Origin: Frederiksenia canicola | Lineage (GTDB): Bacteria > Pseudomonadota > Gammaproteobacteria > Enterobacterales > Pasteurellaceae | NCBI RefSeq assembly: GCF_011455495.1 | Contig: NZ_CP015029.1 | Location: 1,178,740-1,242,739 of the forward strand | Reading direction: 5' to 3' | Length of the DNA: 64,000 nt | Shown: positions 2,256 to 4,420 of the stretch, piece by piece | Position numbering within the stretch: the stretch's first letter is position 1 | Layout: each line of letters starts with the position of its first letter | The notes under the pieces: model-generated | The model's input: the letters and a program-made list of their open reading frames with translations, nothing else | Databases searched by the model: none | What the model was told of the DNA's origin: nothing | Translations under genes and position numbers: made by a program

Positions 2256-4298
2256 GTGTCCTATCAAGTTCTTGCACGCAAATGGCGACCACAACGGTTT
2301 AACCAAGTGGTTGGGCAACAACACGTTTTATCCGCTCTTGAAAACGGTTTGAGAGAAAATCGGCTACATCACGCTTATCTTTTCTCGGGCACGCGTGGCG
2401 TGGGTAAAACATCGATTGCCCGATTATTTGCCAAAGGCTTGAATTGCGAAACGGGGATTACCGAGGATCCTTGCGGTGAGTGTGCGAATTGTAAAGCGAT
2501 TGAAGAAGGGCGTTTTATCGACTTAATCGAAATCGACGCCGCATCTCGCACCAAAGTGGAAGACACCCGAGAGCTACTTGACAATGTGCAATATAAACCA
2601 ACGGTTGGACGTTTTAAGGTCTATCTGATTGACGAAGTGCATATGCTTTCTCGCAGCAGCTTTAATGCCTTGCTGAAAACCTTGGAAGAGCCGCCGGAGT
2701 ACGTCAAATTCCTGCTTGCTACCACGGATCCGCAAAAACTACCGATTACGATTTTGTCGCGTTGTATGCAATTTCATTTGCGTGCATTAGATCAAACTCA
2801 AATTCGTGATCACCTTGAGTTCATTCTCAATCAAGAAAACATCCCTTATGAATTAACCGCTTTGGACAAGCTTGCCAAAGCGGCACAAGGCAGTATTCGA
2901 GATTCTCTCAGCCTGACCGACCAAGCGATTGCCGTTAGCAATGGCAATATTACCTTGCCAATTGTCAGTACAATGTTGGGGCTGATTGACGATCATCAGC
3001 CTGTTGAATTGGTTCAAGCCCTTGCCCTTGCCGATGGCGAAAAAGCGATGAAAGTGATTCAATCTGTCGCCAAAAAAGGCGTAGATTGGCAACAAATGTT
3101 GAGCGACGTGGCAGAAACGTTGCACCAAATTGCGATGTTGCAACTGCTGCCACATCATGCCCAAGAAGATAGCCCCTTGCATTTTTTGGCTCGCCAACTG
3201 CCGCCTGAAGATGTGCAATTTTTCTATCAACTGATGCTTACGGGCAAAAAGGAGCTACCTTTTGCTCCTGAGCAACGTGTTGGCGTGGAAATGACCGTTT
3301 TGCGTGCTTTGGCGTTTCACCCGAAAAATGCCGATAAAATCGTCAATCCAACTCAGCCTGCTATGAGCCAACAAACGCAGCCGGCATCAAATTCTACTCA
3401 GCAGATCGCCCAGCTGCGTGAGCGGTTGAGCCAAAATCAGCCAACGCAAACACAAGCTCAGATTCCGCCGCCTACACAAGCGGTCAGATCCGATGAAAAA
3501 TTTGCAAATCCTGCCGCAAAACCGACCGCTTCGCAGCTTGTTCAAACGTCTGAAACGCAATCGGATAATCCAACAGATACACTGACAAAAGCGAATATGG
3601 CATTGCGTGCGTTGAGCAAGCTCGATGCCACTTTAGCAGGTGCCGAAAAAAAAAAGCCTGACCCCGTAGTCCTTCCACAAGCGGTGAAGAAAACACAAAA
3701 TTTGCAAGAGCGTTTTGCGAAATTGGGTGCTCAACCCACTCACCAGCCATCTGCAGAAACTAAAAATGAGCCGCAGAAAAAAGAGGAGGATTACCGTTGG
3801 ACGTGGCTGAATCCTGAATTAGAAACGCAAGACGACGCACCAAAACCGTCCGATATCAAATTAGCGATCTTGCAAGAACGCACCCCTGAATTAGTCAAAA
3901 AAACCATCGAATTGGCATGTGAGCAAGATGAATGGAGTAATATTGTTGGACGGTTACAGCTAGGTGGGCTTACTCGCCAAGTCGCCTTAAACAGCTATCT
4001 CGCTAGTCGTCAAGAGAACGAATTGCAGCTTGTATTGAAGCCTGCCATGGCACATTTACAAAATCCAGAAACCTTGCAGTTTCTTGGCGAAGCACTAACT
4101 AAACTGGGCTTAAAATATCAATTAACCTTAGGCGAAAGCAGTGAACACAAAACTCCGCTCGAAATTCGCCGTCAGATTTTTGAAAATCTCACGCTAGATG
4201 CAAAAAATGCCTTGTTTGCCGATGAAAAACTACAACTACTACGTGATGCATTCGATGCCGAAATTGATGAAGCAACAGTAAGGGCAGTGGCGGAGTAG
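2256..4298 (+). CDS. dnaX: DNA polymerase III subunits tau and gamma
   Basis: Clamp-loader ATPase of the replicative polymerase; full-length tau is 680 residues. Seen: Walker A GTRGVGKT at 45-52, zinc-binding cysteines 64, 73, 76 and 79, DEVH at 126-129 and the SRC arginine-finger motif at 168-170. A low-complexity Q/T/P-rich linker (about 365-520) separates the ATPase core from the tau C-terminal domain. The start is GTG at 2256 with TAGGT six bases upstream; MSYQVLARKWRP is the canonical N-terminus. A slippery heptamer at 3650-3656 should yield the shorter gamma form. Two uptake sequences (3476-3484 and 3677-3685) lie in the linker, where protein sequence is least constrained. Confidence 0.97.
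   Translation: MSYQVLARKWRPQRFNQVVGQQHVLSALENGLRENRLHHAYLFSGTRGVGKTSIARLFAKGLNCETGITEDPCGECANCKAIEEGRFIDLIEIDAASRTKVEDTRELLDNVQYKPTVGRFKVYLIDEVHMLSRSSFNALLKTLEEPPEYVKFLLATTDPQKLPITILSRCMQFHLRALDQTQIRDHLEFILNQENIPYELTALDKLAKAAQGSIRDSLSLTDQAIAVSNGNITLPIVSTMLGLIDDHQPVELVQALALADGEKAMKVIQSVAKKGVDWQQMLSDVAETLHQIAMLQLLPHHAQEDSPLHFLARQLPPEDVQFFYQLMLTGKKELPFAPEQRVGVEMTVLRALAFHPKNADKIVNPTQPAMSQQTQPASNSTQQIAQLRERLSQNQPTQTQAQIPPPTQAVRSDEKFANPAAKPTASQLVQTSETQSDNPTDTLTKANMALRALSKLDATLAGAEKKKPDPVVLPQAVKKTQNLQERFAKLGAQPTHQPSAETKNEPQKKEEDYRWTWLNPELETQDDAPKPSDIKLAILQERTPELVKKTIELACEQDEWSNIVGRLQLGGLTRQVALNSYLASRQENELQLVLKPAMAHLQNPETLQFLGEALTKLGLKYQLTLGESSEHKTPLEIRRQIFENLTLDAKNALFADEKLQLLRDAFDAEIDEATVRAVAE
3638..3661 (+). 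promoter_or_regulatory. programmed -1 frameshift site in dnaX
   Basis: Ten A residues (3646-3655) followed by G create the heptamer A AAA AAG at 3650-3656 in the dnaX frame, the same slippery site as in E. coli. A slip of -1 gives one GCC codon (3656-3658) and then TGA (3659-3661), ending gamma at 468 residues. AGGT at 3638-3641, eight bases upstream, is placed like the internal Shine-Dalgarno stimulator of E. coli. The downstream hairpin is weak: CTTCCAC at 3672 against GTGAAG at 3684 with one bulge. Confidence 0.85.
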
Positions 4299-4327: not shown

Positions 4328-4420
4328 CAGCGGATCTCTGTGTCCGTTTGCAACAAGCAGTTGAATGTAGCAAAGATCTTACTCATATGTTTACGGGCGG
4401 ACATATAGGTCCACCTCTAC
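4328..4420. repeat. intergenic inverted repeat of GGAC/GTCC type
   Basis: The 142 bases between dnaX and the next gene hold two related arms in opposite orientation: GCGGATCTCTGTGTCCG from 4330 and GCGGACATATAGGTCCACC from 4397. Each arm is itself partly palindromic. The unit resembles short intergenic hairpin repeats rather than coding DNA; its role is unknown. Confidence 0.5.

Follow-up and report, generated by a model that had tools for sequence, protein, structure and literature searches.

By which route would a single dnaX gene give both the tau protein and the shorter gamma in Frederiksenia canicola: by slipping of the ribosome, or by slipping of RNA polymerase? That the same two products can be made from one gene in either way is already known from two distant cases, E. 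coli for the ribosome and Thermus for the polymerase (Larsen et al. reportedly described transcriptional slippage on dnaX of Thermus thermophilus in 2000). The question is raised here by a run of ten A (A10) in the dnaX gene on a 64,000-nucleotide stretch of this Pasteurellaceae genome (assembly GCF_011455495.1, contig NZ_CP015029.1, positions 1,178,740 to 1,242,739 of the forward strand; hereafter the window). A preliminary description, made from the letters of the window, had taken the site for an intact E. coli-type -1 frameshift site, but had left the choice between ribosomal shifting and Thermus-type slippage open. Comparison across the family tips it towards slippage: we propose that the ten-A run is probably a programmed transcriptional slippage site, and that this is the family's conserved mechanism, with ribosomal -1 shifting a possible second source of gamma where G follows the run.

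The dnaX gene and its ten-A run

The features on which the argument turns, in window coordinates, are:

2256..4298, + strand: dnaX, tau reading frame (680 amino acids, GTG start), from the open reading frame, NCBIfam and Pfam
3638..3642, + strand: Shine-Dalgarno-like AGGTG, its end seven bases short of the heptamer; not conserved across the family
3646..3655, + strand: ten-A run (GAA AAA AAA AAg), conserved putative slippage tract, from the sequence and the family comparison
3650..3656, + strand: ribosomal -1 heptamer A_AAA_AAG, in frame; optional across the family (53/90)
3659..3661, + strand: TGA in the -1 frame, predicted to end gamma (468 amino acids); second codon after the run in 81/90 genomes
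3667..3669, + strand: TAG in the +1 frame, reached upon loss of one A or gain of two
3677..3685, + strand: ACAAGCGGT, uptake-sequence core, at a chance-level position and with no apparent part in the mechanism

The product is identified as DnaX by its match to NCBIfam NF005942 (E 5.3e-258), with the Pfam domains DNA_pol3_gamma3 at residues 233-353 and DNA_pol3_tau_5 at residues 537-675. The run occupies codons 464-467. This part of the protein is a variable linker, which joins clamp-loader domain III, ending at residue 353, to the alpha-binding domain V, starting at residue 537; locally the sequence reads GAA AAA AAA AAG CCT GAC, the base after the ten A's being G (3656). In the -1 frame the run is followed by GCC and a stop (AAA GCC TGA, with GCC at 3656-3658), and the predicted products are a gamma of 468 residues and a tau of 680. 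On recheck, the preliminary description proved right as to the coordinates of dnaX, A10, heptamer and GCC TGA, both product lengths, and an AGGT (3638-3641) eight bases ahead of the heptamer; the sole congener has GGAG where the window has AGGTG. The genome has three lysine tRNA genes, all with anticodon UUU, among 54 tRNAs found (all 54 were scanned). With G after the run and UUU as the only lysine tRNA, the site of the window species is one that would fit both mechanisms.

Long A runs are rare in this genome, which in 2,136,304 bases (one contig, both strands) holds six runs of at least nine A, two of them A10. The surroundings of the other five were checked for open reading frames of at least 60 codons. 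The dnaX run is the only A10 within a reading frame; the second is intergenic, between two open reading frames that we take to resemble ssb and uvrA, and of the four A9 runs two lie between frames, one close to where a frame starts and one right at a frame's end. The 12 Pasteurellaceae in a scan of 20 relatives have from 1 to 42 overlapping A10 matches per genome. Two of the 12 (G101 and G137) have a single A10 genome-wide, which must be the dnaX run because both have A10 in dnaX; its genomic place was listed directly for G101 and not for G137.

Conservation across Pasteurellaceae

We compared 140 Pasteurellaceae genomes from 43 genera, all of which have dnaX, taking as the run the longest stretch of A between codon 400 and domain V. 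A run of at least eight A is present in 100/140 genomes (38/43 genera), and in 90/140 (37/43 genera) it is an in-frame A10 (84 genomes) or A11 (six); the remaining ten run-bearing genomes comprise one in-frame A9 (G038) and nine runs that are out of frame in the DNA, and these ten are excluded from the counts on 90 genomes below. Related species are counted separately, except in tests with one genome per genus, and homopolymer errors are possible in the assemblies compared. A further 12 Pasteurellaceae, among 29 named loci, were kept out of the counts, at least some being the same assemblies; ten have in-frame A10 or A11 and two are out of frame, and in-frame A10 followed by G occurs, among these named relatives, in Mannheimia haemolytica, Bibersteinia trehalosi, Actinobacillus minor, A. 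capsulatus and Haemophilus sputorum.

The preliminary description had proposed checking the A run and the TGA for conservation across Pasteurellaceae, and both are widely kept: beside the in-frame runs in 90/140, 81/90 genomes have a -1 stop as the second codon past the run, while at other places in the linker the frequency of -1 stops averages 6.9% and does not exceed 20%. The heptamer is less constant. Of the 90 runs, 53 lead into G, which completes AAG and with it the heptamer; the other 37 lead into C (26) or T (11). The protein around the run is little conserved: in an ungapped alignment on the run only E/Q-K-K-K/N stands out, the next-best linker position from -12 to +15 being E at +5 (43/90), and none other reaches half of the genomes.

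A quick FastTree phylogeny was built from DnaX residues 1-360, with 23 order-mates as the root. On it the presence of a run changes four times among the 140 genomes, and the base after the run switches between G and not-G 16 times among the 90; these change counts are rough (55/158 inner branches are weak), and outgroup states were not counted. The simplest reading would be that the run was present in the family ancestor and was then lost four times, once in a clade of 36 genomes. What the family conserves, on this comparison, is a unit of ten A's plus stops in both wrong frames rather than the heptamer of E. coli.

Stops in both wrong frames

Could such stops follow from protein sequence and codon usage? 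Synonymous codons were drawn at random 500 times, with the amino-acid sequence unchanged and codon frequencies taken from the gene in question. Under this null a -1 stop at the second codon is expected in 28.1 genomes (maximum 41), whereas 81/90 have it; with one genome per genus it is found in 32/37, against a null maximum of 20. The +1 frame is closed too. A first +1 stop lies within an offset of 14 from the AAx codon in 68/90 genomes (null 37.7, maximum 48) and within 26 in 86/90 (null 50.9, maximum 62), excesses of 8 and 9 standard deviations; the one-per-genus values are 27/37 (null maximum 19) and 36/37 (null maximum 27). This +1 closure points to slippage, because two-way slippage needs +1 stops and one-way ribosomal -1 shifting does not.

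The nine of 90 genomes that lack the -1 stop at the second codon are instructive: in six (five genera) one of the first two codons that lie entirely beyond the run is a +1 stop, against a background of about 6% per codon, and in eight the +1 stop is closer than the -1 stop. The 81 other genomes offer no control for +1 stops at these places, because their usual -1 stop shares bases with them and bars them. Slippage that both gains and loses A's would be expected to let the early stop move between frames while A10 is kept. Antonov et al. regard the use of both directions among genes of one function as a sign of transcriptional realignment (PMC3711429).

Ribosomal helper signals

The foremost alternative, which we consider unlikely, is that gamma comes here mainly from E. 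coli-type -1 ribosomal frameshifting on A_AAA_AAG and that the extra length of the run is incidental. It has in its favour the in-frame heptamer with TGA one codon on, AGGTG upstream, UUU as the only lysine tRNA, and the same layout in 20 of 36 order-mate loci examined. For such a mechanism, however, six A's would be enough and yet ten are kept, a base other than G follows the run in 37/90 genomes, and +1 stops are enriched. The helper signals of a ribosomal site were sought as follows.

An upstream stimulator was scored as a Shine-Dalgarno-like four-mer 7-18 bases before the heptamer. Though the window has AGGTG and its congener GGAG, such a four-mer is found in 6/90 genomes of the family, against 3-15 at twelve shifted positions, which is chance level (the heptamer being set one base earlier in A11 genomes; the count is 8 if it is set alike in all). 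The preliminary description had also seen a weak downstream stem. This is not upheld: the window's downstream sequence has a minimum free energy of -4.9 kcal/mol with a z-score of +1.32, 182 of 200 shuffles folding at least as well (a slightly different 60 bases give z +0.71). No stable hairpin was found downstream of the heptamer in the window, and across the family (60 bases, 90 genomes) the mean z is -0.18, against -0.35 and -0.32 at two control positions. A downstream hairpin as a family feature is rejected, with z below -2 in 4/90 genomes and in 8 and 8 of 90 at the controls.

The order-mates serve as a comparison. From 36 order-mate loci (109 order-mates have a match) we chose 20 sites of six to eight A followed by G with an early -1 stop; their -1 stops are uninformative, because they were selected for, and only the Shine-Dalgarno, fold and +1 results inform. 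A Shine-Dalgarno-like four-mer is present in 14/20, against 1-5 at eight shifted positions, and the downstream fold has a mean z of -1.5; +1 stops show no enrichment, with 0/20 within 14 (1.2 expected) and 3/20 within 26 (3.1 expected). Ribosomal helpers, as far as these signals tell, are absent in the family and present in its E. coli-type order-mates.

Of the intact E. coli-type site that was originally proposed, one part stands: that the site is programmed and would yield gamma is well supported, above all by the -1 stop in 81/90 genomes against 6.9% elsewhere. Its E. coli-like character does not, with AAG in only 53/90, Shine-Dalgarno motifs at chance level and no conserved downstream structure. 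In the window's genus the ribosome may nonetheless contribute, given AGGTG in the window and GGAG in its congener.

Other readings of the run

Very improbable, in our view, is that ribosomes simply slide either way on the poly(A) run with no programmed heptamer. Sliding of E. coli ribosomes along lengthy A runs, with termination at stops that are out of frame, is indeed on record (PMC4363877). In that study, however, which used a cell-free system from E. coli, A11 gave a robust truncated product and A9 and A10 little, and 84 of the 90 in-frame runs here are A10.

We give hardly any credence to a replication-slippage (phase-variable) tract that switches cells between states in the DNA. It would account for the nine of 100 runs that are out of frame in the DNA, with nine changes on the tree, all at the tips. 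These are the genomes G001, G005, G006, G008, G012, G019, G025, G070 and G133, with the dnaX loci:

L081, L076, L087, L085, L168, L165, L142, L128, L155: out-of-frame runs, A8 to A12

In each of the nine the frame of domain V is open for 208-266 codons past the run, which means that tau would need a shift; in G019 (L165) the zero frame has TAA at the first codon of the run. The runs may be either real or homopolymer assembly errors, and such errors are likely in some of the genomes (G005 is 81% complete). Against phase variation also, tau is presumably essential, and the close stops in both frames would be left unexplained.

The notion of a neutral, protein-level feature, a lysine-rich linker that is A-rich by chance, gains something from the A-ending codon usage (GAA 75%, AAA 82%; E-K-K alone gives A-ending codons about half the time) but can be all but set aside, as either K or N may follow the run, A10 hardly occurs at other places in the window genome and some others, and the both-frame stops exceed the synonymous null, a test that already disfavoured it.

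A slippage model and what weighs against it

We return therefore to programmed transcriptional slippage. RNA polymerase would add or drop A's on the run, and the dnaX mRNAs would vary in their number of A's. Those with the encoded number, or with three more or fewer, would give tau, and those off by one or two bases would reach a stop just past the run and give gamma, in the window at the TGA after one codon or at the TAG of the +1 frame. The site would have descended from an E. coli-type ribosomal site whose -1 stop register was retained, and in a species such as this one, with G behind the run and no lysine tRNA but UUU, ribosomal -1 slipping may add gamma. Enterobacterial RNA polymerase is described as slipping at runs of at least nine A or T, in variable direction (PMC6260861). 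Our best reading is thus that an E. coli-type ribosomal site has been replaced in Pasteurellaceae by a Thermus-like transcriptional slippage site. We infer from sequence each of the following: that the polymerase slips, the ratio of products, the direction of evolution, and that gamma is made and used.

Several observations weigh against this proposal. The window itself has what a ribosomal site would have: AAG after the run, UUU as sole lysine anticodon and AGGTG upstream. The -1 register is favoured over +1 (81/90 at one codon), as one-way ribosomal shifting also predicts. Among twelve position controls for the +1 test, the one shifted by +8 is above the null by 2.4 and 3.0 standard deviations and the one shifted by +12 by 2.1 in one measure, the remainder lying within 2 or below. 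Avoidance of A10 is not general, because some relatives that have the site hold many other A10 (up to 42 overlapping matches, in G083). Nine of 100 runs, as described above, are out of frame in the DNA. Lastly, 40/140 genomes, 36 of them in one clade, are without a run of at least eight A, so gamma by the slippage route would be dispensable in part of the family; slippery heptamers were looked for in these 40, and within the 36-genome clade none with a -1 stop within two codons was shared by more than four genomes at one place.

How could one mechanism have given way to the other? Tentatively, and with less than even confidence, we suggest a dual-mode site, in which polymerase slippage and ribosomal -1 slipping feed one gamma stop, as the bridge by which ancestral Pasteurellaceae moved gamma synthesis from ribosome to RNA polymerase. 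Many lineages would then have lost the ribosomal component by a change of G to C or T, some would have shifted the early stop to +1, and some would have come to tolerate changes of run length in the DNA, the message being heterogeneous anyway.

The neighbouring uptake sequence

The preliminary description had built its weak stem on an uptake sequence, a link that finds no support: a core occurs within 60 bases downstream of the run in 12 of the 100 run-bearing genomes (nine in one genus), and 11.9 are expected from the linker's own core density. Across the 140 genomes dnaX contains 209 cores in all, of which 151 fall within the linker. In the window genome ACAAGCGGT occurs 1,140 times (52 for the reversed control), and closeness to one core means little because of these 1,140 copies. 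We reject a part for the uptake sequence in the mechanism; it is a mere neighbour.

Two observations stand beside this. In one genus (g18, ten genomes; loci L125-L127 and L130-L136) there is no A10 site, and ATA7TGACCGCAC lies near codon 460 in 10/10, its A7 run leading directly into most of an apparent minus-strand uptake core. Just after dnaX, at 4395-4415 of the window, is a partly palindromic 21-base sequence, with ten genomic copies at up to two mismatches and none for the reversed control.

Poly-A dnaX genes in other families of the order

Some order-mates have a dnaX frame of about 370 codons, and partly for this reason we picked 18 loci from four families (f8, f3, f19 and f24). In f8 (L264-L269) and f3 (L270-L275) a run of A9-A10 lies directly after domain III (codons 359-374) in 11/12 genomes. 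In 8/12 the encoded frame, of 363-374 codons, ends at the run and so at gamma length, and beyond it the -1 frame stays open for 372-659 codons; one f8 genus of six species has three short-frame and three long-frame members at the same run. Only two of the 12 give a match to domain V: G209, where it lies in the shifted frame, and G226, where it lies in the main one. The six f19 and f24 loci have no run of at least eight A in the region, and three of them also end early. The f8/f3 arrangement is reminiscent of the dnaX genes with two open reading frames that Antonov et al. described, and suggests repeated origins of poly-A dnaX within the order. A possibly separate origin, also outside Pasteurellaceae, is seen in L179 (family f5), where dnaX has A10 at codon 464, the -1 stop lying five codons further on and the +1 stop nine.

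According to a 2012 review, enterobacteria have such sequences and most other bacteria lack dnaX frameshift signatures (PMC3290774). No prior description of dnaX recoding in Pasteurellaceae was met in the literature searched, which took in few subscription papers. What this group adds is that both layouts occur within one bacterial order, in about a hundred graded sequences, some of which fit both, so that the route of change becomes testable. The distribution suggests that gamma matters in most of Pasteurellaceae and is dispensable, at least by the slippage route, in one large clade. It also carries a warning: annotation may wrongly report a frameshift or a pseudogene where dnaX has a ten-A run.

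Comparison with known systems

Our site is like Thermus dnaX in that tau lies in one encoded frame, with an A run within the gene and nearby stops in both non-zero frames. The Thermus gene has nine A, stops in both other frames and, by slippage, gamma and tau at about 1:1 (PMC1088944, PMC5009743); here the uninterrupted run of at least nine A past the clamp-loader domains is A10 at codons 464-467, with stops in both frames as well. Polymerase slippage gives gamma in Thermus, and probably does so here. Thermus has two lysine tRNAs, which have been used as an argument for slippage (PMC5009743); the second of these (CUU) was sought and rejected as support here, the window genome having UUU only. 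Also unlike Thermus, 53/90 Pasteurellaceae sites retain the ribosomal heptamer and 81/90 the E. coli-type -1 register.

The dnaX genes with a poly-A run and two open reading frames in the GeneTack cluster have ten-A runs in nine of 17 genes, and transcriptional realignment was inferred for them (PMC3711429); in that cluster tau needs a shift, whereas in Pasteurellaceae tau is the encoded frame. With the dnaX of E. coli and other enterobacteria our site shares the gene and product, the in-frame A_AAA_AAG, the -1 stop after one codon and a single UUU lysine tRNA. It differs from E. coli dnaX in its ten-A run, in the lack of a conserved Shine-Dalgarno motif or hairpin, in the variable base after the run, and in a +1 frame that is closed.
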